Positions 3,635 to 25,054 of a stretch of DNA of 38,882 nucleotides are shown piece after piece (position 1 is the first letter of the stretch; the number at the start of each line of letters is the position of its first letter). This DNA is from an uncultured Pseudomonadota bacterium (GTDB lineage Bacteria > Myxococcota_A > UBA796 > SXON01), in NCBI GenBank assembly GCA_903844155.1, contig CAIMSU010000151.1, positions 1 through 38,882 on the forward strand, read 5' to 3'. The position numbers and the translations under genes were made by a program. The notes beneath the pieces were generated by a model. That model searched no databases, was not told where the DNA came from, and saw only the letters and a program-made list of their open reading frames with translations.

Positions 3635-3718
3635 CGAACAAGCCTATCCGGAACCGTTCAGCCCGGTCTGGCGGCACCGCCGGCAGTAGTCGGTGAATCA
3701 GGAGCGGTGATGCGTGAT

Positions 3719-3793
3719 GCCGATGACGAGGCCGATGACGAGGCCGATGACGACGAGGCCGATGACGAGGCCGATGACGAGGCCGATGACGAA
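3719..3793. repeat. 12-bp tandem repeat, unit GCCGATGACGAG, about six copies
   Basis: Six near-identical 12-base units lie end to end. The third unit has an extra GAC. The array abuts leader repeat B. One strand would encode an acidic Asp-Glu-Ala run, but it lies between two divergent starts and I do not consider it coding. Such arrays usually vary in copy number between strains. Confidence 0.85.
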
Positions 3794-4030
3794 TATTCCA
3801 CGGAATCACCTCGATGATTCCGTCATCACCTCTACCCGATTCCAACCCGCAGCCCGCCAGCCGCACCCCGGAATCATCGCCGGACGCGCGCCAGCCGCCC
3901 CCTGGAATCACCCCGGACGCCAGCCAGACGCCCCCATGATCCCGCCTGACGCGCCCGGAATCACCGCTGACGCGGGCCATCCGCGCCCTTGCCGCCCCCC
4001 GGCTACGCTCCGCGTCAGGAGACCGGCAAC
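3791..4030 (+). repeat. Leader repeat, copy B
   Basis: This is the second copy of the roughly 240-base leader described at 1218-1456. It contains at least four GGAATCA(C/T)C motifs (near 3802, 3870, 3904 and 3958), spaced irregularly and embedded in CCAGCCG and CCCCGGACGC fragments, so the repeat is itself internally repetitive. It ends with TACGCT at 4004-4009 and AGGAGA just before the ATG at 4031. A TTG at 3989 is also in frame with the downstream gene. Confidence 0.8.
3795..3806. promoter_or_regulatory. Near-palindrome ATTCCACGGAAT in leader copy B
   Basis: This is the counterpart of the perfect palindrome at 1222-1233. It sits at the junction between the tandem array and the leader repeat, between divergent genes, so it is a candidate operator or RNA stem. 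Confidence 0.3.
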
Positions 4031-5668: not shown

Positions 5669-5751
5669 AGCCGCCCCCGGCATCACCCTGAAGCGGGCCG
5701 TCCGCACCCTTGCCGCCGCCCGGCTACGCTTCGCATCAGGAAACCCGCACC
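5669..5751 (+). repeat. Leader repeat, copy C (3' part only)
   Basis: The last 80 or so bases of the leader recur here with more substitutions: GGCATCACC, AAGCGGGCCGTCCGC, CTTGCCGCCGCCCGGCTACGC, then TCAGGAAA. The upstream part of the repeat is absent. The TACGCT hexamer and the ribosome binding site are kept. Confidence 0.7.
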
Positions 5752-6303
5752 TTGATCGAGCGCCGCGGACATCGCACCGGACTGTCGCGCCATCTGCGCA
5801 TCGCGGTGACCGTCGTCGCTGTCGGCGTGGCGGCGTGTCGGGTTCAGGCACCTGCCGAGCCTGGCTCCGGTGGCGCGGAGTTGACGACGGCTGGCGCGTC
5901 GGCGGTGGCCGGAGCGGTCGCGAAGCAACACGAATCGGAACCCGCGACGGCGCGCGTGCCCTCGGGAGTTGGCCCCGTTCCCGAGGCCGGAACGTTCCCG
6001 GCCCGCGACCCCTTCAGAGCAGCGCCCGGCCCGTGTGCCCCCGCCTCGCCGGGCGCTCTCGTCGTGCCGCCACTCCAGAGCTACGACGCAGGCGCATTCC
6101 GCCTGGTCGGCGTCATCGACGCGCCCCCGGAGAGCCAGGCCCTGCTTCTGGATCCGTGCGGCGGAACCTCGGTTGTTCGCCTCGGCACCTACGTCGGTCG
6201 GAATTGGGGCAGGGTCTCTGCCATCACGAGCAATGAGGTCATCGTGCCGGAGGAGTATCAGACGTTCGAGCCCGTCTACAACTACGTCAAGATCGGCTTC
6301 TGA
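5752..6303 (+). CDS. PilP-like lipoprotein
   Basis: From the TTG at 5752 (AGGAAA about 9 bases upstream) the product is 183 residues with a basic N-terminus, a hydrophobic stretch and a VAAC lipobox near residue 30: a lipoprotein signal. A disordered Ala/Pro-rich linker of about 60 residues follows. The last 70 residues (FRLVGVIDAPPESQALLLDP, then TYVGRNWGRVSAITSNEVIVPEEY) match the pattern of the PilP C-terminal domain, in which a small beta domain repeats V-R-L-G-x-Y-x-G-x-N-x-G-R-V. PilP is the inner-membrane lipoprotein linking PilN/PilO to the secretin in type IV pili. No other pilus gene lies in the window, so this is an orphan copy, possibly recruited to another envelope complex. The in-frame TTG at 5710 would bury the signal peptide, so I reject it. 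Confidence 0.6.
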   Translation: MIERRGHRTGLSRHLRIAVTVVAVGVAACRVQAPAEPGSGGAELTTAGASAVAGAVAKQHESEPATARVPSGVGPVPEAGTFPARDPFRAAPGPCAPASPGALVVPPLQSYDAGAFRLVGVIDAPPESQALLLDPCGGTSVVRLGTYVGRNWGRVSAITSNEVIVPEEYQTFEPVYNYVKIGF

Positions 6304-6369
6304 TCTGCCTGACCGGCGCTGGCCGGCCCAACATCGGCCCGCCCCAGGCCGCCGGGGTAAGAACCCGTC

Positions 6370-7305
6370 ATGCCCTTCCCCAAGATGGAGATCACCCGCG
6401 ACATCGGCGACGCCCAAGTCGGGGCCACGCTCGACCTGAAGCCCGTCCAAGGGCAGACCATCCCGCAGACATTGAGCTTCGAGGTCTGGTTCTACGTCAA
6501 GTCGGGTGCCGCCCCGCTGCTCCTGGTGAACCCCTCCCTCGACATCACGCTGTACCGCCGGGTCGGCCAGAGCGGCTACCAGCAGCAATCCGGCGTCCGC
6601 CTGCCGATCACCACGGGCGATCTTGGGCACACCGGCGGGTTCCTCGCGGGCGAGGCGATGATCTGGCGGCCGTTCGCCTACCTCCCGGCCGAGCTGATCC
6701 TGCGGATCGACGCCCTCCGCGACGCTGAGCACGGCCTGCACGCCGAGATGCGGCTGAACGCGGGGATCGTCTCGCTCGCTTCCGCGCCGCGCCGCCCGGG
6801 CGAACCGGCGATCCCCTTGGCGGCGAAGCCCTTCCCCTGGCACGTCTCGTTCCCGGTCACGAACGACCTTTGGCGCGAGCTTCTCACCCAGATGGGCTGG
6901 CCGACACCCCGCATGTTCGAGCTGCACCCGTTGAGCTTCTCCAGCCTCGCCGAGTTCGAGGGCGCCGCGATCAAGCTCAAGGAAGCCGAGCGCCACCTCT
7001 TCCTCGGGAATTGGGGCGAGTCCGTCGGGATCTCGCGCATCGTGGTCGAAGCCGTGTTCCGAAAGCTCGGGTACAAGGACAAGAAGCCGTTCAACTGGAA
7101 CACCATCATCGCCGCAGGCCTGCCCACCGAGATGAGCGACATCTTCAGGGCGCTCAACAGCGTGGCCAACCACGAGCATCACCCCACTGGCGTCGATCCT
7201 CGCTGGGAGCGCGCCGACGCGCGGTTCATGCTCCAGCTCGCCGCGTCCCTCGCCGAGTACGCCGGCACCCTCCCGCCACGCATCCCGCCAGCCCCGCCTC
7301 CGTAG
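6370..7305 (+). CDS. Unknown two-domain protein, possibly HEPN-like C-terminus
   Basis: This is the intact paralogue of the broken gene at 1576-2511. The N-terminal half (residues 1 to about 150) looks like a beta-rich domain: TLSFEVWFYVKSG, NPSLDITLYRRVG, LPITTGDLGHTGGFLAGEAMIWRPF. The C-terminal half is helical: AAIKLKEAERHLFLGNWGESVGISRIVVEAVFRKLGY, an EMSDIFRALNSVANHEHHPTG motif and RFMLQLAASLAEYAGTL. That order (two helices, an Arg/Asn/His motif, a final Ala/Leu helix) is reminiscent of HEPN and Abi_C-type bundles, although the R-to-H spacing is longer than the canonical Rx4-6H. The tail is PPRIPPAPPP. It ends 87 bases before brxE, so a link to phage defence is possible but unproven. Conservation with the broken copy is strongest in the helical half. 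Confidence 0.55.
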   Translation: MPFPKMEITRDIGDAQVGATLDLKPVQGQTIPQTLSFEVWFYVKSGAAPLLLVNPSLDITLYRRVGQSGYQQQSGVRLPITTGDLGHTGGFLAGEAMIWRPFAYLPAELILRIDALRDAEHGLHAEMRLNAGIVSLASAPRRPGEPAIPLAAKPFPWHVSFPVTNDLWRELLTQMGWPTPRMFELHPLSFSSLAEFEGAAIKLKEAERHLFLGNWGESVGISRIVVEAVFRKLGYKDKKPFNWNTIIAAGLPTEMSDIFRALNSVANHEHHPTGVDPRWERADARFMLQLAASLAEYAGTLPPRIPPAPPP

Positions 7306-7392: not shown

Positions 7393-7980
7393 ATGGCGGA
7401 GGATTCGCGACAGAGCGAGCGATTGGAGGACGCCCTCCTCGACCGCATCATCGACTACCAGGTGCTGATCGCCTGGGCGGGCGAGACGCAGCGCCTGGAG
7501 TGGTGGCGCGCGGACGCGACCGACCTGGAAAATCACGGCGGCGGCGAGTTCTTCAAGCGATGGCTTCCGAATTCTGGTGCGCTCGCAGCCATCGACGCGG
7601 CCCGGCGATCTGCGATGCTGGTGGACGCCGACGCCCGGCGGGCGGCGGTGAGCACCGAGGACCAGGACGAGTTGATCACCTTGTTCCACCTCGGGTCCGC
7701 GACCGACCGCCAGATCGAGGATCGCTACCGCTTCCGTCGCACCCACCGGACTATGAAGGTCCATCAAGGCGAGTTCAACCGCCAGAGCCTCGCGGGCCGC
7801 CTCGCCGTCATCGCCGATCCACCGGCCATCGACACCACGCCTATAGGCCGGCGCGTGTGCGCCCCCGCCCTCCCGCTCGACGCCGCGAAGGTGGACGCCC
7901 TCGTGCTCGCTCTCCTCGACGGCGACGGCTTCCCCGCCCGCTACCCGGTGCCCTACTACGACCGGCGGCTGGCCGAATGA
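7393..7980 (+). CDS. brxE: BREX type 6 protein BrxE
   Basis: First gene of the BREX operon; its presence marks type 6. The 195-residue product is cytoplasmic with no enzymatic motif. The opening segment LLDRIIDYQVLIAWAGETQRLEWWRAD near residues 13 to 40 fits the BrxE pattern of a Leu-Asp-Arg helix followed by Gly-Glu and a Trp-Trp pair, and the middle DELITLFHLGSATDRQIEDRYRF is also BrxE-like. The role of BrxE is not established in the literature I know. I chose the ATG at 7393 because GGAG lies 9 bases upstream; a TTG at 7387 is too close to it. The stop overlaps the brxA start (ATGA), so translation is coupled. Confidence 0.75.
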   Translation: MAEDSRQSERLEDALLDRIIDYQVLIAWAGETQRLEWWRADATDLENHGGGEFFKRWLPNSGALAAIDAARRSAMLVDADARRAAVSTEDQDELITLFHLGSATDRQIEDRYRFRRTHRTMKVHQGEFNRQSLAGRLAVIADPPAIDTTPIGRRVCAPALPLDAAKVDALVLALLDGDGFPARYPVPYYDRRLAE

Positions 7981-8735
7981 ACACACGGGAAACCTCGGAA
8001 TTCCATACGCGCATCCTGCGGGTGACCCTCGCCGTCGAGGAGAGCTTCGCGTTCTGGTCGCACGCCGGACTCGACGCGACGGCCGCTGATCTGAACGTCC
8101 GGGCCTTCGAGGAGCGGTGGTACGGCAGCAAGTCACCCGACCGCGTGAAGAAGCTGCACGAGGACTTCTTCGACCGCTACAGCTTTCCCGGAGCGCGACC
8201 GGCGCTGAAGGTCTGGGCCGAGCGAGGGATGCCGGCGGATGCACGGCGGCTGTGCGCGCACTGGCACCTTCAGCTCGTGGACCCCCTTTACAGGGCGTTC
8301 ACCGGCGACTGGTTGCCCGCGCGCCGGGCGGCGGGCCACGGCACCGTTGATCGCGACGCCGTGATGCCCTGGATCGGCGAGGTGCTCGGCACCGAGTACG
8401 CCCCCGCGACGCGCCAGATGTTCGCGGGGAAGCTGCTCACGTCGGCGGGGCAGGCCGGTCTGGTCGGTCCCGGCAGCGTCCGGGACCTTCAGCACCCCGC
8501 GGCCTCGCTGGAAGCGACCGGCTACCTGCTCTACTTGCTCCGTGGCGTCCAGATCGACGGCTCTCCCCTCGACAATCCCTACCTGCGCTCCGTGGGCCTC
8601 AGCGACGAGCGGCTGGACAGCCGACTTGGGGAGGGCACGCGCTCCGGCTGGTGGCAGTACACGCGGTCGGGCGGTGCCCCCGATGTGGGCTGGACCTCCC
8701 CCGATCTCCCGTCGTGGGCGGAGGCCACGCGATGA
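7977..8735 (+). CDS. brxA: BREX protein BrxA (DUF1819-like)
   Basis: The product is 252 residues, start overlapping the brxE stop. BrxA is a small helical, DNA-binding BREX core protein resembling the RNA-binding NusB fold. Supporting segments are the N-terminal helix ETSEFHTRILRVTLAVEESFAFW, the VRAFEERWYGSKSPDRVKKLHEDFFDRYSF motif typical of the family (residues 42 to 70), the DARRLCAHWHLQLVDPLYRAFTGDWL stretch, and a C-terminal part suggesting a winged-helix-like region (TRQMFAGKLLTSAGQAGLV). A much longer upstream extension of this frame exists, but it lies inside brxE and is a shadow. The gene ends ATGA with brxB. Confidence 0.82.
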   Translation: MNTRETSEFHTRILRVTLAVEESFAFWSHAGLDATAADLNVRAFEERWYGSKSPDRVKKLHEDFFDRYSFPGARPALKVWAERGMPADARRLCAHWHLQLVDPLYRAFTGDWLPARRAAGHGTVDRDAVMPWIGEVLGTEYAPATRQMFAGKLLTSAGQAGLVGPGSVRDLQHPAASLEATGYLLYLLRGVQIDGSPLDNPYLRSVGLSDERLDSRLGEGTRSGWWQYTRSGGAPDVGWTSPDLPSWAEATR

Positions 8736-9352
8736 GCCTGCCCACCGAGAACCTCAACGGTCGGCTGGAAGAATTGCGCCGCGATCTGCTCGATCCCGGG
8801 GGGCCGCAGCTGAGCCAGATCCGGGCCTACCGCTTCGCCATCTTCCACTACGCGCCGAGCGACGAGCTGGAGATGCACCGGAAGATGGCCGAGCTTTCGC
8901 GCGACCTCGATCAGAGCGGGTGGAAGGTGATCGCCCTCTCGGCGATGGAGCTGTTCCTGAAGCGCGTCGAACGCGAGTCGCGGGGCCGGGTCGAACGGTT
9001 GATCCAGGCGGAGCGCGGGCATTTCGAGCGCGACCCGGCTGGCGGGCTCGACTACCTCCAGCAACAGGTCTCGCGCTGGCTGGAGGGCCCGAAGGGCATC
9101 GCCGCCGACATCACGGAAGCCATCAAGGGCCGGATCGAACCTGGCGCGGAGGCCAGAACGGTAGTGTTCATCGGCCGACTTGGCGCGTTCTACCCGTTCT
9201 ATCGGACCTCCGCGCTCCTTCGCTTTTTGGACGGCGCGGTGACCGTCCCGGTGATCCTGCTCTACCCGGGCTACCGCGCCGGGGAGCGCAGCCTCTCGTT
9301 CATGGGCGTCGTCTCGGCGGCCGACAGCGACTACCGCCCCCACATCTACTGA
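8732..9352 (+). CDS. brxB: BREX protein BrxB (DUF1788-like)
   Basis: The product is 206 residues and translationally coupled to brxA through ATGA. DUF1788 features are visible: the opening helix LNGRLEELRRDLLDPGGPQLSQIRAYRFAIFHYAPSDELEMHRKMAELSRDLDQSGW, the strand KVIALSAMELF, and the C-terminal block RTVVFIGRLGAFYPFYRTSALLRFLDG followed by VPVILLYPGYRAGERSLSFMGV, which is the family's most recognisable segment. The length fits the usual roughly 200 residues. BrxB is an essential BREX core component in characterised systems, thought to act in the complex with PglZ and BrxC; its biochemical role is unresolved. Confidence 0.85.
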   Translation: MSLPTENLNGRLEELRRDLLDPGGPQLSQIRAYRFAIFHYAPSDELEMHRKMAELSRDLDQSGWKVIALSAMELFLKRVERESRGRVERLIQAERGHFERDPAGGLDYLQQQVSRWLEGPKGIAADITEAIKGRIEPGAEARTVVFIGRLGAFYPFYRTSALLRFLDGAVTVPVILLYPGYRAGERSLSFMGVVSAADSDYRPHIY

Positions 9353-9366
9353 CACGCTGACCGGGA

Positions 9367-12300
9367 ATGATCATGAAAGTACGCGACGTATTCAAGGATG
9401 GGATCGAACGGCACATCGCGCCGGTCGTCTACTTCCATCAACAGGAGCCCGCGCACGTCGCGGCCGAAGCGCGCGAGTACATCTTCACGCCCGGCATCCA
9501 CGACCAGATGGTCAACCTGCTCCGGCAGCTCCAGAAGTCCCTCGCGGACGCGACGCTGGCGGACCTCCCGGCGAGCTGGATCTCAGGCTTCTACGGCAGC
9601 GGCAAGTCCGGCTTTGCCAAGCTCGTCGGCCTCGCGCTCGGTGGGTTCCAACTGCCCGACGGACGCCCCCTCATGGAAGCGCTCATCGCGCGGGACGACA
9701 CGCCGAACGCCCCGGATCTACGGAAGGCGTTCGGGGACGTGCAGGCGGCGCTCCCGGCCGGTGCGCTCGCGGTCGTGTTCGACATCGGCGGGCAAGCGCG
9801 CGACAACGAGCACGTCGACAAGGTGGCTCTCCGATGCCTACGGGCCGCGCTCGGGTACTGCCCCGCCGATCCCGTTGCCATCGAGGAGATGAAGCTCGAA
9901 GCGGCGGGTCAATGGGAACTCTTCCAGCGCACGGCCGCGGAAGTGCTCAACCGCCCCTGGTCGGAGGCATCGGCCGACGCTTTCCCGATGGAGGACTTCT
10001 CCGAGGTCATGAACCGAATGTTCCCGACCCGGTACGCAGAGCCGATGACCTGGCACTACTCGCACACGGGTCGTGCCTACGACAACAGCGGATCGATGGC
10101 CGACTCCATCGCGCAACTCAAGCAACTCCAGGACGGACGTGCCGCGGGAAAGCACATCTTCTTCGTGATCGACGAGGTGAGCCAGTACATCATCCGCCCG
10201 ACCTACCAGGCGATGACCAGCTTCCAGGACAACGGCGGCGAACCACAGGATCCCAAGGACCGGATGCTGCGGCTCCAGACGTTCATCAGCGCGCTCGGGC
10301 AGCGGTTCCGCGGGCGGGTCTGGCTGTTCGCGCTCGGGCAGGAGCAACTGGAGATCGCCGAAAAGGACTCCCCGCTCGGCAAGATGCGAGATCGCTTCCC
10401 GCCACACCTCCGCGTCCACCTCGACCCCGCGAACATCCAGGACGTCGTCAAGCGACGACTGCTCCGCAAGGGCGACGTGGCGGACGGGAAGCTCCGCAAG
10501 GTGTGGAAGGAGCAGGCCCCCCGGCTGAAGCTCTATGGCTGGGTGACCGGCAACCGCCTCGACGATGCGGCGGCCGAATCCCGATTCGTGGACACCTACC
10601 CGCTTCTCCCCGACCATATCAACCTCCTGCTGGAGATCAGCACGGGGCTCCGCAACGCCTCGCAGCGCGTCCAGACCGACGCCGCTTCGGTCCGCGGCCT
10701 CATGCAGCTCGTCCAGGAGCTGTTCCGGCAAGGGACCATCGGCGACGCGGAGCTGCCCACCCTGCTCACGCTCGATCAGGTCTACGAGGTCCAGCGCAGC
10801 GGTCTCCCGAACGACCAGTCACTCACCATGACCGCGATCATCGAGCGTTTCTCGGCGGACACGCCGGAAGACCAGATGCGCCAGCGCGTCGCCAAGGCCG
10901 TCGTGCTGCTCGGCTACCAGCGCGCGAAGGTCACCGGGGAGATGGTGGCGAAGCTGCTCTACCTGCGGGCCGGGGACGACGCGCCGACGGAGGCCGTCAA
11001 TGGTGCGCTCGAACGGCTGAAGGAGGACAACTTCCTCACGTTCTCCGAGGAGAAGGGCTTTCGGCTCCAAGACGCTGCCGGCCAGGAGTGGAACTCGGAG
11101 CGCCAGCAGGGGAAGGCAGGGGCGGACGAGGTTGCGGCCCGGCTGCTCTCCCAGGTCGCGGACCTGTTCACGGTGCGCGCGAAGCTGGACACCCGGATGC
11201 TCCCGTTGGAGCTGATCTTCTCGGCAGGCAGCAAGTACGTCGAGCACCGGCAGACCCGCCGGGAGGACACGACCGTCCCCATTGATCTCCGGTTCACGTC
11301 GGAACCCATCCACGCCGACGCCTGGGTGCGGCAGTCCGCCGATCCACCGATCAAGGACCGCTTTCTGTGGCTCGTGCCCTTCCAGACGAGCGATCCGCTC
11401 TTCGTCGCGGCGCAGGAGGTCGAACGCTCCGACGCGATGGTGAAGCGGTACACCAGCATCGGCGTGAGCGGGGACAAGCGGTACCTTCTGAACGACGAGG
11501 AGAAACGCCGGGAGCGGCTCGCCGCCGAGTTGAAGGAGGCGGTCAAGAGCGCCCTGTACCGTGGTGCGTTCCTGTTCCGCGGCAGTCGCCTGCCCATCGG
11601 CGATCACCGCAGCATCGAGGCCGTCGTCGGCAAGCTGATCGAGCCGAAGCTCCGCGACTTGTACCCCTACTACCGGGACTTCGCGGTGACGCCGCGGGAC
11701 ATGGAGCAGCTCCTCGCAAACGACATCCCGGCGGGGTCCAGCGAGAAGTTCTTCCCGGAACAACTCGGCTTGTTGAAGATGGACGCAGGGCGTCCTGGCT
11801 GGCACCCCGAGGGCGAGGCCCCCAAGGCCATCCTTCGGCACATCGACGAGCAGAAGGGCGTCAACGGCGGCTCGCTCCTCCAGTTCTTCGCCCGCCCGCC
11901 CTACGGGTACGCGCCCGACATCGTGCGCGCCTGCCTGCTCGCCCTGTTCCGGGGCGAGAAGGTCGTCATCATCAGCGAGTCCCAGAGGCGGCTAACCTCG
12001 TACAAAGAGGAGGGTGCCCGCGACCATTTCCTCACCGACCGCCCGCTCAAGAACGCGCATGTTCAGGTACGCGTCGGCGGGAAGATCGGCGCACGCGAGC
12101 TGAACGCGATCCGCAACGTCCTGGAGACGTGCGGGAAGCGCGGGCTCACGACCGACCGGGATGCGCTCACCGACGCGATCTTCGACGTGCTCGCCGACCA
12201 GCGGAAGCGGCTGCGCGAGGTCGAGGACCGGCTGCGCGGACTGCCCCAACTCAACCTGCCGTTGCGCCCCGAAGTGTTCGCCACGCTGACGGCTGCGATG

Positions 12301-13017
12301 GACCAGTGCGGGCGGGTGCGCGGGGTCGAGCCCACGCTCGAAACCTTCCACGGTCACCTCGCGACGTTCCAGACCGGCTTCGGCGTTCTGAAGGACTACC
12401 ACGACCAACTGACGGATGAGGCGATCAAGGCGGTGAAAGGCGCGGCGGAGATCCTCCAGAGCCTCGGCATCCAGCTCGGCGAGGTGACGGGCATCCCCGC
12501 CGAGGTCCAGGCCGCGCTGACCCAACTGCGGACGCACCTGGAGGGCACCCGGCCGTGGCGAGACCACGCCGATCTGGACGCTCCGGGCAGCATCGTGACC
12601 GCCGGCTACCGCGCCGACCGAACCCGCCGAGCCGCGGCCCGCAACGCCGACGCCGAAGGGGCACGCGAGACGCTCAAGCGCGAGGTCGGCTTTGAGCGGC
12701 TGGCGCCCGAGCAAGCGAGCGAGGTGCTGGCCCCGCTGTTCACGGCCGGCGACAGCGTGGACCTCGACGCGGTCGCGCCGTCCTTGCGCGTGCTCGATGC
12801 CGACTGGCCTGACGTGCTGCGTCGGGCCGATGTCGACGCGCGTGCCCGCCTGCACCGGGCGTTGCACCCTCATATTCCCGTGCATGACGTGCCGATCCGG
12901 GCAAAGGTGCTCAAGAGCCCCGAGGACGTGGAGACCTACGTTGGCGGCCTCCGCACCCAGCTCCTCGACGAGCTTGGGGACGGGCGACGGCACGTCCGCG
13001 TGAAGGTGACGTCGTGA
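9367..13017 (+). CDS. brxC: BREX ATPase BrxC
   Basis: Large BREX ATPase of 1216 residues, the size usual for BrxC/PglY. The Walker A motif GFYGSGKS is at residues 74-81 and Walker B (FFVIDEV) has its acidic pair at 269-270. The rest is a long, largely helical protein with a segment (VRVGGKIGARELNAIRNVLE) near residue 900. BrxC is required for BREX methylation and defence and is thought to load or power the PglX/PglZ machinery. The ATG at 9367 has little room for a ribosome binding site; the next in-frame ATG at 9373 (MKVRDVFKDGIERHIAPV) has GGGA about 7 bases upstream and is probably the real start. It follows brxB by 14 bases and precedes pglX by 10. Confidence 0.92.
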   Translation: MIMKVRDVFKDGIERHIAPVVYFHQQEPAHVAAEAREYIFTPGIHDQMVNLLRQLQKSLADATLADLPASWISGFYGSGKSGFAKLVGLALGGFQLPDGRPLMEALIARDDTPNAPDLRKAFGDVQAALPAGALAVVFDIGGQARDNEHVDKVALRCLRAALGYCPADPVAIEEMKLEAAGQWELFQRTAAEVLNRPWSEASADAFPMEDFSEVMNRMFPTRYAEPMTWHYSHTGRAYDNSGSMADSIAQLKQLQDGRAAGKHIFFVIDEVSQYIIRPTYQAMTSFQDNGGEPQDPKDRMLRLQTFISALGQRFRGRVWLFALGQEQLEIAEKDSPLGKMRDRFPPHLRVHLDPANIQDVVKRRLLRKGDVADGKLRKVWKEQAPRLKLYGWVTGNRLDDAAAESRFVDTYPLLPDHINLLLEISTGLRNASQRVQTDAASVRGLMQLVQELFRQGTIGDAELPTLLTLDQVYEVQRSGLPNDQSLTMTAIIERFSADTPEDQMRQRVAKAVVLLGYQRAKVTGEMVAKLLYLRAGDDAPTEAVNGALERLKEDNFLTFSEEKGFRLQDAAGQEWNSERQQGKAGADEVAARLLSQVADLFTVRAKLDTRMLPLELIFSAGSKYVEHRQTRREDTTVPIDLRFTSEPIHADAWVRQSADPPIKDRFLWLVPFQTSDPLFVAAQEVERSDAMVKRYTSIGVSGDKRYLLNDEEKRRERLAAELKEAVKSALYRGAFLFRGSRLPIGDHRSIEAVVGKLIEPKLRDLYPYYRDFAVTPRDMEQLLANDIPAGSSEKFFPEQLGLLKMDAGRPGWHPEGEAPKAILRHIDEQKGVNGGSLLQFFARPPYGYAPDIVRACLLALFRGEKVVIISESQRRLTSYKEEGARDHFLTDRPLKNAHVQVRVGGKIGARELNAIRNVLETCGKRGLTTDRDALTDAIFDVLADQRKRLREVEDRLRGLPQLNLPLRPEVFATLTAAMDQCGRVRGVEPTLETFHGHLATFQTGFGVLKDYHDQLTDEAIKAVKGAAEILQSLGIQLGEVTGIPAEVQAALTQLRTHLEGTRPWRDHADLDAPGSIVTAGYRADRTRRAAARNADAEGARETLKREVGFERLAPEQASEVLAPLFTAGDSVDLDAVAPSLRVLDADWPDVLRRADVDARARLHRALHPHIPVHDVPIRAKVLKSPEDVETYVGGLRTQLLDELGDGRRHVRVKVTS

Positions 13018-13027
13018 GCCAGCGCCC

Positions 13028-17124
<4,097 letters not shown>

Positions 17125-17128
<4 letters not shown>

Positions 17129-17862
17129 TACCGCGCCTGATCATGCTGAACGCCGGGCGGCGTGCCTCGCGCGGCGTCCATCACCCTCCCATCGTGCGCG
17201 CGTCGGATGATCACGACTACGTCCTCAAGCTGGGCGACCGCGACCGCGACTTCCCGGCGTGCGAGCTGGTCGCGGCGATGCTGGCTACTGCCTTCGGCGT
17301 CGAGATCCCGCCCTTCGCCCTCATCGAAGTTCCCGACGATCTCCGCGCCGTTCTGGCCTTGCAGGGTCCGGCCTGGGCCGACCTCGCTGCACCGCAGCCG
17401 GCTGGGGGCTGCTTCGGGAGCCGCTGGATCGACGTGGCGACCCCGTTCACCCCGCTCCTGACGGAACGCATCGAGGATCGGGACTCGTTCTGGCGCCTGT
17501 TCGTGTTCGACGTGTTCATCGAGAACGGGGACCGCCAGCCCAACAACCCGAACGTGCTCGTCCAGGATCGGCGTCTCGTCGCCATCGACCACGGGCAGGC
17601 TCTGCCCTGCGTCCAGGGGCTCCGCGACATCGGCCCCTTCGGGCACGCCGCGCACGTCCTCTGGCCGGTTGTCGCCGCCGACCCGTCACGCCTCGCTGCG
17701 TCCGCCCGTCGGCTTCCAGACGACAGGGACATTGACGACGCGGTAGCTTGCGTTCCGGCTGAGTGGTGGGCAGATTCGGGGCGTCCCGCGATGGTGCGGG
17801 CGGCCCTTCGCGCCCGCCGCCAGCGGACCCGCGATATCCTTGACAGGTTGAGCACCCCATGA
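17125..17862 (+). CDS. HipA-like kinase (HipA_2 family) embedded in BREX operon
   Basis: The 245-residue protein has the layout of HipA_2-type kinases. The N-terminal segment IVRASDDHDYVLKLGD contains the likely ATP-contacting lysine (K35). ELVAAMLATAFGVEIPPFALIEV and GGCFGSRW follow. The catalytic loop ENGDRQPNNPN (residues 133-143, with D136 and N141 or N143) is followed by AIDHG (D155), the metal-binding Asp. Such proteins are compact relatives of the HipA toxin kinase; substrates are generally unknown. The GTG start overlaps the pglX stop and the end overlaps the next gene by ATGA, so it is co-translated with the BREX genes. It is not part of the described type 6 core. No HipB-like antitoxin is adjacent; the partner is the DUF3037-like protein. 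Confidence 0.85.
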
Positions 17863-18626
17863 ACCACCCCTACTTCTTCGCAGCCGTACAATGCCGGGAC
17901 GAGCGAGCCTTTCAGGAGGTTCGCACGGTGGGCGTCGTCATGCTCGGCACCGAGGGCGACTTCGCGGCGATCAAGCTCGCGCCGCTCGCCATCAAGCTCG
18001 GCGAGAACGCGGACCTCGGCGTCATCAAGGCGGTGCTCGCGGCGTGGGAGGGCGAGGTGCGGGAGGTTGCCCGCCGTGGGCCCGTCGAGGCGCTGCGCTG
18101 GCTGGAAGCCCATGTCGGCCCCTCCGAGGACATCCTCCACCTGACCCCGCCCACCGCTGGGCTGACCGACGACCTGACCGCCACGCTTCGCCGGATCGCG
18201 GCCGAATACACGGGCTACACCGCGCGCGGCGGGCAGAAGTGGCCGGAGCGCGTCATCACGCAGGTTCTGCGCCGTACGGGGATGAGCGCGGCGTTTCACG
18301 AGCAGACGTTGACGGCGGACAGCATGGCCTGGAAGTTCCCATATGTCGCCGATAACTGGCTCCTGCATCCCGTCGCGATGGACCAGAAGCGCGACAATGG
18401 AGTCTTCGACGCTGCCTTTCACGAGACGGGCCGGTTCGACGAGATTCGCCGGTTCCACCCTGACCTCCGCGTGATGGCGGTCGCAGCGGAGGCCGAAGGG
18501 CCAGCTCGGAAACGGGCGCTCGACATCTACCGGGAGCACCGGATCGAGGTGGTCCCCGCCGACGCGCAGCGGTTGGCCCGGGCGATGTCGGACTTCGGGC
18601 TCTTGTCCGTCGGTGAAGCCAAGTAG
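17859..18626 (+). CDS. DUF3037-like protein, partner of HipA-like kinase
   Basis: The product is 255 residues. The N-terminus (YFFAAVQCRDERAFQEVRTVGVVMLGTEGDFAAIKLA) follows the DUF3037 pattern of a beta strand, a phenylalanine, then a Val-Gly-Val-Val strand. The protein is longer than a single DUF3037 domain; the C-terminal half (TGMSAAFHEQTLTADSMAWKFPYVADNW, then DLRVMAVAAEAEG and HRIEVVPADAQRLARAM) is unassigned. DUF3037 proteins are often encoded beside HipA_2 kinases, which is why I read these two as a unit. The function of the family is unknown; modulation or substrate delivery for the kinase is a guess. It overlaps the kinase gene by 4 bases and abuts pglZ with no spacer (TAG then ATG). 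Confidence 0.7.
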   Translation: MNHPYFFAAVQCRDERAFQEVRTVGVVMLGTEGDFAAIKLAPLAIKLGENADLGVIKAVLAAWEGEVREVARRGPVEALRWLEAHVGPSEDILHLTPPTAGLTDDLTATLRRIAAEYTGYTARGGQKWPERVITQVLRRTGMSAAFHEQTLTADSMAWKFPYVADNWLLHPVAMDQKRDNGVFDAAFHETGRFDEIRRFHPDLRVMAVAAEAEGPARKRALDIYREHRIEVVPADAQRLARAMSDFGLLSVGEAK

Positions 18627-21542
18627 ATGGGGATCGTCGCCGAGCAGCTCGAACGCGATCTTTGCCACGACATCCAGCAACGGGGAATCGTGGTCTGGCT
18701 CGACCCGGAGGCCCGCGCGCGCCCCTTCGCGGAGGGGCTGCGCCAGCGGTTCCAGGACAAGGCGTTCCCGTACCCGGTCGTCGTATTCGACGGTTCCTTC
18801 CTCGCGACTCTCTACGCTCTGGAGCCACACCTCGCGGGCGAGACCGTCTACCTGCTCCTGTACGTCCCCGGTTTGGAAGAGGCCGCCCTACGCCACTCGC
18901 CCCTCCTCGAAGTCCTGCTCGCCGGTCATCCGGTCCGCAAGAGCCTCCCCGACGCCGTGCAGAGCACCGCCGCCGCGCTCGTTCCCGCGTCGGATCTGGC
19001 CCGGTTCCTCGCCAATTGGGATGGTCGTCTGGAGAGCGCCGACCGCTGGTTGACGACGCGAGCGACCGACGATCCGCGCGTGGTGCGGATGTTGGAGCGG
19101 GAGACGCCGGCCGATGTGGTGATCGACCTCCTGACCGACAAGAAGCTGCTCAACACCTACGATCTCCACATCGGCGACCTGAAAAACTGGCTTCAGAACA
19201 CGTTCGGATTCGCGCTCCCCGCCGACGGGGACACCGCCTTCGACCTGTTCGCCCGGCATCTGCTCTGCGTGGAGTACGTCGCCGACCTCGCGCCCGAGCC
19301 GCCAAGCTCCGCGATGGGGGCGTACGCCGAGCTTGCCCCCGCCGTCGTCGAGGTGTGCCGCCACGCGGTAGCCAGCTTTCGCACGCGGCACGCGGACGCC
19401 TATGAGCGCGTCGCGCTCGACGTGGAGGCCCAGATCCACGCGGAGAGGGCATGGGCGCGCGGCAAGGCGCTCGGGTTGGTAGACACCTTCCGGTTCGAGG
19501 ACGAGGAATTGGCACGGCAGGCACTCGAAGCCCTGGAGGAAGGTCGCGCGGCCCCGGCGATCGCGTTCGCGACCCAGCGGCTCGGAAGCGAGGACGCACC
19601 GGGCTCTTTCTGGGTGGGCCGCTCTCAGCGTCGTCGATGGCTGTGGGAGTGGATTCGGGAGGCTGCGCGCCTCTGGCAGATGACCGCGCCCGCGTCCGCC
19701 CCCGTCGGCTGGCGAAGCCTGCGGGATGCCGTCGAGACCTACACGCGCGACCTCGCCCCGGTGGACCGCAGCCACCGCCGGTTCGAGCAGTACGACGCCC
19801 GGCTTCGCAGCCTCAGCCAGCTTGAGGAGTTCCCGCGCACCCGCTCGGTCGTGCGCCAGCTTCGCCAGCGTGTTCGCCGCTATCTCGATGCCTGGGCAGG
19901 CTGGTTCAACGACCTGTGCGACACGGCCGGGCCGCTTCCTCCCCCCGACCTTCAGCTTCGCCAGGTGTTCGAGGAGGACGTGCTGCCGCGTGTTCATCAG
20001 GGGGGCGCAGGGGGCGAGCCCGTCGCGCTGTTCATGGTGGACGCCCTTCGCTACGAGTTGGCGTTGGAGCTACGCGACGCGCTGGTGGGCGTGCCGGAGG
20101 GATCCTGCACCCTGAAGGCGCGTCTCGCCGAGCTTCCCACCGAGACGGCCATCGGGATGAACGTGATCCCGCCGACGGCGCGAGCGGGCCGCCTCACCCC
20201 GACGTGGGGGGACAAGAGCATCCGGGGCTTCCGAGCCGGCGAGTTCGCGGTGACGGCGCCGAAGGACCGCGAGAAGGCAATCTCGCAGCGGGTCGGGATG
20301 TCGCCCGTCCCGTGGTGGAAGCTGGAGGACGTGATCGCGCAGGAACCCGAGGCGCTCCGCCGCAAGCTGGCGGGTGCGCGGGTGCTGGTCGTCCACTCGC
20401 GCGAGATCGACAGCGCCGGCCACGCGGGCATCGGGATCGCGCACTTCGACTCGCTGATCGGCCAGCTCGTCGCCGCCTTCCACCGCCTTAACGCGGCGGG
20501 CGTGCGCTCCTTCGTGTTCACCGCCGACCACGGCTTCCTGCTGGGCGACGAGACCGCTGTGCGGGCCAGGATGCCCGACGGCGTCTACCCGGTGGCCCCG
20601 TCCCGGTTCGTGCCCTCAGACGCGCCGGACGGCCCGCCAGCGCGCTTCCTGTTGTCGCGCGAGGCCGACACGCGGCCTGGCTGGTCCTGCTTTCCCCTCG
20701 GCGCGCTCGGCTACGAGACGGAACCCACGCGGCCTGGCTGGATGCTCTTCGCGAGGGACACGCGCGTGTTCTCCTCGGAGATCCCCCCCTTTGTGCATGG
20801 CGGCAACACCTTGCAGGAGCGAGTGGTGCCCGTCCTGTACGTCAACCGCACCCCTCCGGCCGCGACAACGGCTCCGCGTCGTCGCATCGTGGCCGAGATC
20901 CTCGGTAAGAGCTTTGGTGCCCACGAGGTTGAGATCCGCGTGTTGGACGACGGCCAGGGCGGACTCGGCTTCATGGCGCAGGAACTGGACTTGTCCTTCC
21001 GTGTGGCGGATCGGGCCGATGTATCGGTCGTGATCGGCGAGGTGAAGGAGGCGGAGGCTCTGACCGGGGCCACCGTTCGGGTGCGGGTCGGCGACCGGCC
21101 CGCGCGCGTCTGGTTCCGCCTGGAGGGGGCGAGCGAGGGGGTCGCCCGCGTCGAGATTCACGGCGTCAGCGACAACCTGGCCATCGTCTCGCTCAGCCAG
21201 CCGATTCCCGTCGTCGTGAACGTGAAGGCGACCACCGCCGACTCCCCCGCGCCCATGCTCTTCCCCCCACCGCAACTCGCGTCGAGCACGACGGACTGGC
21301 TTGCCGCTCTCCCTGCGGATCTGTTGCCCTTTCGCGAGGTACTCCGTCAGATCGACGACACCCGCGCGCTCAGCGAGGAGCAGTTGGTCGGGCTGCTGGG
21401 TGGCCCTCCCGTGGGGATGCGCCTCGCTCGCGCGTTCGCCCGGTTGATGGCGGATACCCGGATGCGAGCGCACCTCCCCTTCGACGTTTCGATTCACGAC
21501 TCGGCGGGGCGCAAGCAGTACCGCCGGGAAATCAGGAAGTAG
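18627..21542 (+). CDS. pglZ: BREX protein PglZ (alkaline-phosphatase-like)
   Basis: The product is 971 residues with the PglZ domain in its middle. FMVDALRYE (D472, R475, Y476) is the signature first metal-binding loop; VHSREIDSAGHAG near residue 590 and FTADHG (D634, H635) supply the remaining alkaline-phosphatase-superfamily ligands. The N-terminal 450 residues are helical and BREX-specific; the C-terminal 250 form probable beta domains. PglZ is the common marker of all BREX types. Its enzymatic target in defence is not settled, though relatives show metal-dependent nuclease or phosphodiesterase activity. The ATG directly follows the stop of the DUF3037-like gene, so expression depends on readthrough translation of the inserted pair. 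Confidence 0.93.
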   Translation: MGIVAEQLERDLCHDIQQRGIVVWLDPEARARPFAEGLRQRFQDKAFPYPVVVFDGSFLATLYALEPHLAGETVYLLLYVPGLEEAALRHSPLLEVLLAGHPVRKSLPDAVQSTAAALVPASDLARFLANWDGRLESADRWLTTRATDDPRVVRMLERETPADVVIDLLTDKKLLNTYDLHIGDLKNWLQNTFGFALPADGDTAFDLFARHLLCVEYVADLAPEPPSSAMGAYAELAPAVVEVCRHAVASFRTRHADAYERVALDVEAQIHAERAWARGKALGLVDTFRFEDEELARQALEALEEGRAAPAIAFATQRLGSEDAPGSFWVGRSQRRRWLWEWIREAARLWQMTAPASAPVGWRSLRDAVETYTRDLAPVDRSHRRFEQYDARLRSLSQLEEFPRTRSVVRQLRQRVRRYLDAWAGWFNDLCDTAGPLPPPDLQLRQVFEEDVLPRVHQGGAGGEPVALFMVDALRYELALELRDALVGVPEGSCTLKARLAELPTETAIGMNVIPPTARAGRLTPTWGDKSIRGFRAGEFAVTAPKDREKAISQRVGMSPVPWWKLEDVIAQEPEALRRKLAGARVLVVHSREIDSAGHAGIGIAHFDSLIGQLVAAFHRLNAAGVRSFVFTADHGFLLGDETAVRARMPDGVYPVAPSRFVPSDAPDGPPARFLLSREADTRPGWSCFPLGALGYETEPTRPGWMLFARDTRVFSSEIPPFVHGGNTLQERVVPVLYVNRTPPAATTAPRRRIVAEILGKSFGAHEVEIRVLDDGQGGLGFMAQELDLSFRVADRADVSVVIGEVKEAEALTGATVRVRVGDRPARVWFRLEGASEGVARVEIHGVSDNLAIVSLSQPIPVVVNVKATTADSPAPMLFPPPQLASSTTDWLAALPADLLPFREVLRQIDDTRALSEEQLVGLLGGPPVGMRLARAFARLMADTRMRAHLPFDVSIHDSAGRKQYRREIRK

Positions 21543-21545
21543 CCC

Positions 21546-22886
21546 ATGTCCGACGTTTCCATGATCGTCCGCGAGCGCATCTTCGAGGACTTGCGCGCTG
21601 GCCGCGTCCCCACCACCGGCCTCGACACCTTCGCCGTCGGCATCGACGATGTGCTCCGCGAGATGACCCGGCAATTCGATCTCGTCCGAAAAGACACGGG
21701 CGGGGCCAAGTTCCTGCGCGGTGACTATGGCTGCGGCAAGACCTTCGTGTCTCGCTTGACTGCGCTTCAGGCGATGGATGCCGGCTTCGTGACCTCTACG
21801 GTGGTCGTCTCCCCCAACGACACGCGCTTCCACCGGTTCGACGAGGTGTATCGCAAGATCGTGGCGAACCTCTCGACGCCAACGTGCCCGCGAGGCGCGC
21901 TCGGAGACATCCTCGACCGCTGGGTAGGGGGCATCGAGGAGGAGCTGATCGGGCAGGGCACCGACGTTGCCGCGCCGGACTTCGATGACCGGGTAGCCGC
22001 CCGGATCGGCGAGAAGCTCGACGCGCTCACCCGCGGCAAGGCCCCCGAGGACTTCGTGCGCGTGCTCCGCGCCTGGTTCCGGCTGCGGCAAGCGGGCAAT
22101 TTCGACGATGCGGGGGCGCTGCTCTCCTGGCTGTCCGGCTCCACCCACGTCCCCGTCTCGGCGATGAAGTCGGCGGGGGTCAAGGGGCACATCACGAGCG
22201 CGGTCGCGCTCAACTACCTGCGCGGCATCGTCGAGATTATCCGCACGGCCGGGCAGGAAGGGCTGGTCGTCATCATCGACGAGTTGGAGACCATTCTCCG
22301 CGCCCGGCGAGACGTTCGGGGGCTCACGATGAACGGTCTGCGTCAACTCGTGGACGCCGCGCCCGAATTCCCTCGGTTGCTCTGGGTGTTCACCGGCACG
22401 CCGGAGTTCTTCGACAGCCAGCGCGGCGTGCGCGGCCTCGCGCCGCTGGACGAGCGAATCCGGTTCCAGCAGCAGGGCGGATTCGCCTCGTTGAAGCAGC
22501 CGCAGATCCAGCTTCGGCCCTTCGACCGCCAACGATTGATTGATGTGGCCCTCCGGCTCCGGGAGCTGTTCCCGACGCAGAACCGCGCCCGGGTCGAGGC
22601 GGTGCTGGACGGCCCCACTATCGGGCGGATTGTGGACTCGGTGAGCGGCGGACTCGGCGGCGATGTCGGCATCGTCCCCCGACAGTTCCTTCGCGAGTTC
22701 GTGGGCGTCATGGACCTCGTGGACGAGCAGCCGTCCTACGACCCCCGCCACCACTACGCCTTCCGTGTCGATCCCGCGCAACTCTCCGCCGAGGAGAAGG
22801 GCAAGCTCGAAGGCCCGCCCCCGCTGCCCGACGAGGACGGCGGGAGCTACGAGCTGGTTGACCTCTCGCGGATCGCGGAGGCGTGA
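21546..22886 (+). CDS. brxD: BREX P-loop ATPase BrxD (DUF2791-like)
   Basis: The product is 446 residues. Walker A GDYGCGKT is at residues 59-66 and Walker B VVIIDELE has D245/E246. The opening segment MIVRERIFEDLRAGRVPTTGLDTFAVGID, the TTVVVSPNDTRFHRFDEVYRKIV block and the ending PRQFLREFVGVMDLVDE are characteristic of the DUF2791 P-loop proteins that accompany BREX helicases. BrxD is found in BREX types 2 and 6 together with brxHI and probably acts as a loader or switch for it. It sits 3 bases after pglZ and overlaps brxHI by GTGA. Confidence 0.88.
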   Translation: MSDVSMIVRERIFEDLRAGRVPTTGLDTFAVGIDDVLREMTRQFDLVRKDTGGAKFLRGDYGCGKTFVSRLTALQAMDAGFVTSTVVVSPNDTRFHRFDEVYRKIVANLSTPTCPRGALGDILDRWVGGIEEELIGQGTDVAAPDFDDRVAARIGEKLDALTRGKAPEDFVRVLRAWFRLRQAGNFDDAGALLSWLSGSTHVPVSAMKSAGVKGHITSAVALNYLRGIVEIIRTAGQEGLVVIIDELETILRARRDVRGLTMNGLRQLVDAAPEFPRLLWVFTGTPEFFDSQRGVRGLAPLDERIRFQQQGGFASLKQPQIQLRPFDRQRLIDVALRLRELFPTQNRARVEAVLDGPTIGRIVDSVSGGLGGDVGIVPRQFLREFVGVMDLVDEQPSYDPRHHYAFRVDPAQLSAEEKGKLEGPPPLPDEDGGSYELVDLSRIAEA

Positions 22887-25054
22887 ACCCCGACGGCCCC
22901 GCCGAGCCGACCCGGGACGGCCCCGCCGCGAGCACGTTTTCGCGCCTGCACCCACGCCTGCAACGCGCCGTCGTGGATCGGCTCGGCTGGCGCTCCCTGC
23001 GCCCCGTCCAGGATCAAGCAGCCGCCGCGATCCTCGACGGTCACAACGCCGTCGTGCTCGCCCCCACCGCTGGCGGCAAGACCGAGGCGGCGCTGTTCCC
23101 GGTGCTGTCACGCCTGCTCGAAGAGCCGACCACGCGCCCCGGCGCGCTCTACATCGCCCCGATCAAGGCGCTGCTCAACAATCAGGAGGAGCGCCTCGGG
23201 CAGTACGCGGAGATGGTCGGGCTCCGCGCGTTCAAGTGGCACGGCGACACGACGCAGTCCGAACGCCGGCAATGGCTCCGCGACCCCGGCGAGCTGATCC
23301 TCATCACGCCGGAAAGCCTGGAGGTGCTGCTCGTCTCGCCGAAGGTGCCCTCGGCCGCGCTGTTCGAGCAGCTTCGGTTCGTCGTGGTGGACGAGGTTCA
23401 CGCCTTCGCCGGGACGGATCGCGGGGCGCACCTCGCTTCGGTGATTGAGCGGCTGGCCGCGCTCACGGGCTGCGACCTTCTGAGGGTGGGGCTCTCCGCC
23501 ACCGTCGGAAACCCCGCCGACATCCTGGGCTGGCTGGCGGGCTCCTCGAAACGCCAGGGGCGCGTCGTGGACCCGAGCGGCCCCCCACCCCGGCGTGACG
23601 TGCTGGTCGCGATGCCAGGAGCCGTCGGGGTGATCGCAAGGGATGCGACCCGGCTGGCGCGAGGTCAGAAGAGCCTGTGCTTCGCCGAATCCCGCTCGAT
23701 GACCGAGATGATCGCGACCCAGATGGCTGGCGGCGGCGTGGACGTTCTGGTCCACCACAGCTCGGTGTCGAAGGAGGAGCGCGCCCGCGCCGAGGAACAG
23801 TTCGCGCGCGGGCGCAACACCTGCATCGTCTGCACGTCCACCCTAGAGCTCGGCATCGACGTAGGCGATCTGGACCGCGTGATCCAGGTGAACTCCCCGC
23901 GCTCAGTCGCCAGCTTCCTCCAGCGGATCGGGCGCACTGGCCGACGCGAGGGACGCCCGCAGAGCATGGTGTTCCTGTGCGAAGCCGCGATGGACGCGCT
24001 CCAGGCCGCCGCCGTGCTCCGGCTGGTCCAGCGCGGCTGGGTCGAATCGGTCCCACAGCCGCAGCGCATGTGGCACGTCCTCGTCCACCAGTTGCTCGCG
24101 TGGACGCTCCAGTTCGAGAGCCTGGAGATTGAGAAGGCGTGGGCCGTGCTGCGCCACGTCCACGCCTTTCGCGGATTCGCCGACGCGGAGGTCGAGGCGC
24201 TGGTCGCTCACCTCGTCGAGACGCGCATGTTCGACCGGGTGTCAACCCGGCTCGTGCTCGGGACCGAGGCAGAACGCCGGTTCGGACGGCGGAACTTCAT
24301 GGAGCTGTACTCGGTGTTCAGCTCGCCACAGGTGTTCGCAGTGAGGACCGCGAGCGGCCGGGAGCTTGGGGTGCTCGACGAGGACTTCGTGGAGCAGCTC
24401 TTCGAGAACATGTCCAGCTTTCTCCTGGGCGGGTCGGCGTGGTCGGTGATTCGCATCGACCGGAGCGACCGCGTGGTGCTCGTTCAGCCAGCACCCTACG
24501 GCGTGAAGCCCGGTTGGGGCGGTCACGCGCCGATCCTGCTCTCCCAGCAGCTCGCCGAGGAGATGCGCGCGATCCTCGTTGACGCCCCCGAGATGCCGTT
24601 CCTGCACGACACCGCGCGAACAGCCATCGGGGGGCTACGCGACGAGTTGGGCAGCACGCTCACCAACGCGCAGGGAATCACGATCTCCCCCGACGAAATC
24701 CGCTGGCACACCTTCGCGGGTGGGCGCATCAACCAGACATTGCGCCTCGCGCTGGCGATCCTCGGGGATTGGAAGGTCGTGGCGGACAACCTCGGGGTGA
24801 GCATCCGGGGCGTCGGACTGTCCGTCGATGCGTTGACGAAGCTACTCCCGACGCTGGCGGACCCGACGTGGTGGGTGGACGCGCGCACCGAGCTTCACGA
24901 GCGGCTGCCTGGGTACCGCGTGTCGAAATTCCAGCACCTTCTCCCGGTCGAAGCGCAGAGGGAGATCGTGGCGGAGATGTTGCTGGATGTGGAGGGGACG
25001 CGAGCGTGGGTGGCGGGAAGGTCGGGGGCTCCGGCATTGCCTTCGCGGGGCTGA
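22883..25054 (+). CDS. brxHI: BREX Lhr-like helicase BrxHI
   Basis: Superfamily 2 helicase of 723 residues. Motif I is APTAGGKT (residues 60-67), motif II is DEVH (170-173), motif III is LSATVGNP (around 205), and motif VI is QRIGRTGRR (from about 347). The C-terminal half contains the winged-helix and Lhr-type regions. Lhr helicases translocate 3' to 5' on single-stranded DNA; the role in BREX is unproven. The start is a GTG overlapping the brxD stop. This is the last gene of the coupled operon and closes the type 6 order; no brxL, pglW or brxHII is present. Confidence 0.9.
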   Translation: MNPDGPAEPTRDGPAASTFSRLHPRLQRAVVDRLGWRSLRPVQDQAAAAILDGHNAVVLAPTAGGKTEAALFPVLSRLLEEPTTRPGALYIAPIKALLNNQEERLGQYAEMVGLRAFKWHGDTTQSERRQWLRDPGELILITPESLEVLLVSPKVPSAALFEQLRFVVVDEVHAFAGTDRGAHLASVIERLAALTGCDLLRVGLSATVGNPADILGWLAGSSKRQGRVVDPSGPPPRRDVLVAMPGAVGVIARDATRLARGQKSLCFAESRSMTEMIATQMAGGGVDVLVHHSSVSKEERARAEEQFARGRNTCIVCTSTLELGIDVGDLDRVIQVNSPRSVASFLQRIGRTGRREGRPQSMVFLCEAAMDALQAAAVLRLVQRGWVESVPQPQRMWHVLVHQLLAWTLQFESLEIEKAWAVLRHVHAFRGFADAEVEALVAHLVETRMFDRVSTRLVLGTEAERRFGRRNFMELYSVFSSPQVFAVRTASGRELGVLDEDFVEQLFENMSSFLLGGSAWSVIRIDRSDRVVLVQPAPYGVKPGWGGHAPILLSQQLAEEMRAILVDAPEMPFLHDTARTAIGGLRDELGSTLTNAQGITISPDEIRWHTFAGGRINQTLRLALAILGDWKVVADNLGVSIRGVGLSVDALTKLLPTLADPTWWVDARTELHERLPGYRVSKFQHLLPVEAQREIVAEMLLDVEGTRAWVAGRSGAPALPSRG

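Follow-up and report, generated by a model that had tools for sequence, protein, structure and literature searches.

The host operon and its two-gene insert

The window, by which we mean the whole 38,882-nucleotide stretch of DNA that we analysed, carries on its forward strand a complete BREX operon that runs brxE-A-B-C-pglX, then a HipA_2/DUF3037 gene pair, then pglZ-brxD-brxHI. The type 6 marker brxE (7393..7980, start ATG 7393) was located by tblastn, its product being 31.7% identical to the annotated BREX-6 BrxE of Pseudanabaena (E 8e-16) and 27% identical to the product of an Aulosira gene (E 1.5e-17). It is followed by brxA (7977..8735, start ATG 7977), which the PADLOC BrxA profile PDLC02448 matches with E 2.7e-63 over residues 163-409 of a longer ORF (7500-8735) and whose product shares 39% identity with Pseudanabaena BrxA; by brxB (DUF1788; 8683..9360, start uncertain; 40% identity to Pseudanabaena DUF1788/BrxB, E 1e-45); by brxC (9367..13017; NF033441, 533 bits, cut-off 400; PADLOC BrxC, E 3.5e-278); and by pglX (13028..17128; PADLOC PglX, 1199 bits), which encodes an Eco57I methylase domain. 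Downstream of the pair lie pglZ (18627..21542; NF033443 BREX-6 PglZ, 637 bits, cut-off 400), brxD (21546..22886; NF033438, 473.7 bits, cut-off 350) and the helicase gene brxHI (22883..25054; PADLOC BrxHI, E 2.9e-247). With all eight core genes present and PglZ scoring above the BREX-6 curated cut-off, the operon is BREX type 6, a type reported in 506 taxa (PMC12839542).

Upstream of brxE the window holds two diverged copies of one gene (1567-2508 and 6361-7302), 4794 bp apart and 78-86% identical at the DNA level in aligned blocks; Pfam has no family that matches the encoded proteins, and the upstream copy is broken in two by an in-frame stop (1885-1887). Short GATGACGAGGCC-like units repeated in tandem (3704-3804), which encode a run of acidic residues in one frame, and more direct repeats (1210-1426, 3783-3999 and 5708-5762; 82-91% identity) also lie upstream of the operon, and the direct repeats suggest that this edge has undergone repeated segmental duplication.

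The first gene of the insert (17125..17862, forward strand) encodes a kinase of the HipAD/PDC-M66A-like kind, with matches to Pfam HipA_2 (PF20613; E 1.4e-22, 80.6 bits, cut-off 27) and to the PADLOC PDC-M66A profile (E 1.7e-19); its GTG start at 17125 is backed by alignment with relatives. The second (17859..18626, forward strand) encodes a protein that matches DUF3037 (PF11236; E 2.8e-6, 28 bits, curated cut-off 22.6), a family that is paired with HipA_2 elsewhere, and is a probable antitoxin. Both identities had been anticipated in the original prediction, which had also described the catalytic residues K35, D136 and D155 as intact: the numbering is right, and in an alignment of 13 HipA_2 proteins of Myxococcota these three residues are invariant, as are E47, D129, N134, R137, N143 and H156. 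Structure prediction with AlphaFold (AF2) gave a confident kinase model (pLDDT 91), whose best structural matches are kinases, including H. pylori CtkA and the HipS–HipT complex. Neither protein of the pair found a match in a sequence search against solved structures or in a tblastn search against plasmids.

The predicted position between pglX and pglZ, and all three predicted junctions, hold exactly: pglX and the kinase gene overlap in GTGA, the kinase and DUF3037 genes share a four-base ATGA overlap, and the DUF3037 gene abuts pglZ with zero spacing (TAG|ATG). The pair is therefore embedded in the operon through tight junctions, and its co-translation with the defence genes, which had been asserted outright, is probable. 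The G+C content of the two genes (69.6% for the kinase, 68.1% for the DUF3037 gene) does not differ from that of the remaining operon. A rival coding frame, an antisense ORF of 556 aa (17220-18887), has weaker coding bias, its GC3-GC2 being 0.22 as compared to 0.32 for the kinase and 0.41 for the DUF3037 ORF.

The AF2 model of the DUF3037 protein (pLDDT 84, pTM 0.53) places residues 125-251 in a separate C-terminal domain. As judged by VIA-align, this half lies nearest to restriction-endonuclease-like folds, with resemblance to Can2, Cdn1 and PspGI (best Z 9.7 over 115 residues, rmsd 2.8); a Foldseek search with the model gave no significant match. Judged by eye, the alignments show no conservation of the (D/E)xK motif, so we do not propose a nuclease role, and the resemblance of fold, coming without that motif, suggests that the C-terminal half would bind rather than cut. 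The protein matched no helix-turn-helix family in a Pfam search and did not match DUF1829 at E 0.001. PADLOC returned nothing for it up to E 10, a search in which weak matches are filtered and for which a matching profile may not exist.

Cargo sites of type 6 operons and the distribution of the pair

A search for type 6 PglZ in 379 Myxococcota genomes gave 30 above the cut-off, the window's genome among them, and we took the DNA around the matches for the 29 other Myxococcota loci; beyond Myxococcota, type 6 sampling consisted of three plasmid type 6-like loci. A scan of viral contigs with PglZ found no relatives. Taking gene ends from ORF boundaries and counting as an insert any intergenic gap of more than 300 bp, we found an insert between pglX and pglZ in 15 of the 21 measurable loci (window included) and between brxC and pglX in 8 of 13, as compared to none of 33 pglZ–brxD junctions and 1 of 30 brxD–brxHI junctions. 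The sole exception among the latter (L033, G058:C40) carries a 1.6 kb insert. The pglX–pglZ junction differs in this from the pglZ–brxD and brxD–brxHI junctions (Fisher p = 6e-9 and 2e-7, respectively), although the loci are related and the p values are descriptive.

The contents of the pglX–pglZ slot differ between loci, and many belong to known defence or toxin-antitoxin families. The slot holds AAA_21 and DUF4276 genes matching HEC-01/PARIS models in L037 (2524-4376), further DUF4276 proteins in L039 and L043, GmrSD-HNH and TIR genes in L049 (7188-9622), SIR2, HerA, Schlafen and RES domain genes in L035 (3821-10490), DUF6119 in L053, a weak match to NACHT, encoded on the other strand, in L041, and, in a plasmid from a cyanobacterium, genes of the DUF29 and DUF433 families; ParE-, RES- and DUF433-type genes also occur in relatives' slots. 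In L044, where pglX is off the contig, DarT lies just upstream of pglZ (16994-17692). The Aulosira plasmid has no insert, and its pglX and pglZ share four bases. We conclude that the type 6 operon has its cargo sites on the two sides of the specificity gene pglX: across the operons surveyed, the junctions bordering this gene accept genes from elsewhere, many of which are defence genes, whereas the pglZ–brxD–brxHI stretch remains closed. The location of the pair alone thus gives no sign of a function in BREX. Three loci carry pglX–pglZ proteins of 368-543 aa without a Pfam or PADLOC match (L003:294-1397, L045:16956-18362 and L047:10652-12280), which are candidates for new defence genes; searching the slot is a way to find defence genes that have yet to be characterised.

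The original prediction had proposed surveying pglX–pglZ content across type 6 loci for the pair, the finding of it in this genome only being taken to count against the idea. Using profiles built from diverse Myxococcota pairs, we found relatives of HipA_2/DUF3037 in 0 of the 29 other Myxococcota type 6 loci and 0 of the 3 plasmid loci, an absence that is certain only for the measurable junctions as several loci end at contig edges. The conserved presence across type 6 loci that would mark a BREX component was therefore not seen. The pairing itself is nonetheless not confined to this genome. HipA_2 scores above the Pfam cut-off in 26 of the 379 Myxococcota genomes, and a DUF3037 gene lies directly beside it in 19 of the 30 HipA_2 loci examined (window included); the remaining 18 such loci have no BREX core gene within flanks of ~1.5 kb. 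In the two pairs most similar to it, the kinase is 38-41% identical and the DUF3037 protein 32-35% identical; both pairs lie outside BREX, with an eCIS-core and a sulfatase gene alongside and a DNA methylase gene nearby. A genome-wide scan for near HipA relatives, with search patterns that proved too specific, returned only these two known pairs. Because none of the other type 6 loci surveyed carries it and it occurs without adjacent BREX genes, the pair, on gene content, is best described as an autonomous module rather than a BREX component.

One further locus (L100/L095, G374:C57 1-19000) has a HipA_2 gene and a short DUF3037 gene near a type 1 BREX operon; we rejected it as a second BREX-embedded pair, since the genes sit ~6 kb outside that operon. 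Between brxC and pglX the same type 1 operon carries a gene with a weak match to a SIR2 short-Argonaute-associated profile.

Possible roles of the pair

Published relatives offer a guide to function. Retron-Sda1 no longer defended against phage Bas51 once its HipA-like kinase was deleted; deletion of DUF3037 was toxic, and the retron parts were not needed (PMC12548924). HipAD, which was first named DS-6, consists of a HipA-like kinase and a DUF3037/DUF1829 protein, and mutation of the kinase catalytic site abolished its defence (PMC13092281). Because of this behaviour of homologous pairs, we take the kinase to be the putative toxin and the DUF3037 protein its putative neutraliser. We consider it likely that the pair is a toxin-antitoxin defence cassette of the HipAD/PDC-M66 type that was inserted in the pglX–pglZ cargo slot, with BREX and the pair acting as independent layers; it would most likely be an exchangeable backup defence, not a new BREX component. 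Of the roles originally proposed for the kinase, that of a second, abortive layer is the best supported, by analogy with the same two relatives.

The cassette would have entered the variable slot of the type 6 operon and become seamlessly joined to its reading frames. In the uninfected cell both proteins would be made along with the BREX proteins, the DUF3037 protein binding and silencing the kinase, and an infection that evades or disables BREX would release it. The freed kinase may then phosphorylate an essential target, probably a component of translation as HipA does, and growth would be arrested before the phage burst. HipA proteins target aminoacyl-tRNA synthetases. BREX would thus form the first layer and the pair the second, independent of one another and sharing one transcript.

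Junctions as tight as these would be compatible with a dedicated BREX accessory as well. It is possible, if unlikely, that the pair guards BREX: one of its two proteins, DUF3037 or kinase, would contact PglX or PglZ, the antitoxin would be stabilised by BREX proteins from the shared transcript, and phage proteins that block BREX would unleash the kinase, much as PARIS responds to the anti-restriction protein Ocr. Recruitment of PARIS has been argued to counter Ocr, a BREX inhibitor (PMC12839542), and the same slot in the relative L037 carries PARIS/HEC-01-like genes; the reading-frame overlap with pglX and the zero spacing to pglZ also agree with such contacts. However, a related pair functions standalone (PMC12548924), such pairs occur without BREX, and a single BREX-embedded case gives no sign of co-evolution. 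If the pair did act as a guard, the pglX–pglZ slot would be a general docking site for exchangeable guards, and this model and that of independent layers become directly testable against one another.

We think it quite improbable that the pair is a selfish or stabilising toxin-antitoxin module that prevents loss of the BREX operon and provides no phage defence of its own. While one relative does behave as a toxin-antitoxin pair (PMC12548924) and the slot accepts the ParE-, RES- and DUF433-type genes listed above, protection against phage has been published for two relatives (PMC12548924, PMC13092281). Finally, the original suggestion that the kinase regulates BREX by phosphorylating PglX, PglZ or BrxC, for which its position within the operon and the Ser/Thr kinase carried by the type 2 BREX protein PglW (PMC12839542) could be cited, is highly improbable and we set it aside, given that the pair is missing from every other type 6 locus surveyed (29 Myxococcota and 3 plasmid), that 6 of the 21 measurable pglX–pglZ junctions have no insert of more than 300 bp, and that the pair is common away from BREX.

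Comparison with known systems

Both elements of the favoured reading, a cassette acting as a layer independent of BREX, are already known: the module of HipA-like kinase and DUF3037 protein as HipAD/DS-6/PDC-M66, and backup effectors as residents of BREX loci. What seems to be new is the nesting of a HipA-like kinase toxin-antitoxin pair in a type 6 BREX operon; our literature search, which did not include the Payne et al. 2024 embedded-defence preprint, found no paper placing HipA/DUF3037 inside BREX.

The PDC-M66A match, the adjacent DUF3037 gene and the intact kinase residues would place the pair with HipAD/DS-6/PDC-M66, an assignment made by profile and not by identity to the characterised HipAD. 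It differs in being embedded in BREX and apparently co-translated with it, and in having a second protein without a PADLOC match; furthermore, DS-6B has been described with DUF1829, which we did not detect in the DUF3037 protein here. PADLOC's PDC candidates themselves derive from a guilt-by-embedding approach (PMC12988326). Retron-Sda1 offers the same two-gene module within another defence operon and independent of its host system (PMC12548924), although that host is a retron rather than BREX.

As an extra effector inside a BREX operon, the pair resembles the catalogued backup effectors of BREX loci, but that catalogue is one of nucleases, including PARIS, GmrSD and Schlafen types, and its main text makes no mention of HipA (PMC12839542). 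DarTG2, which hsdS and hsdR flank in a type I restriction system, is likewise a toxin-antitoxin defence module within a modification-based defence operon, although its toxin is an ADP-ribosyltransferase and its host a restriction system (PMC12255303). With HipBA, the pair shares a HipA-superfamily kinase and a presumed cognate neutraliser. In contrast to HipBA, however, the kinase here is short and of the HipA_2 family, its partner gene lies downstream, and its neighbours are pglX and the DUF3037 gene rather than a HipB-type HTH gene.
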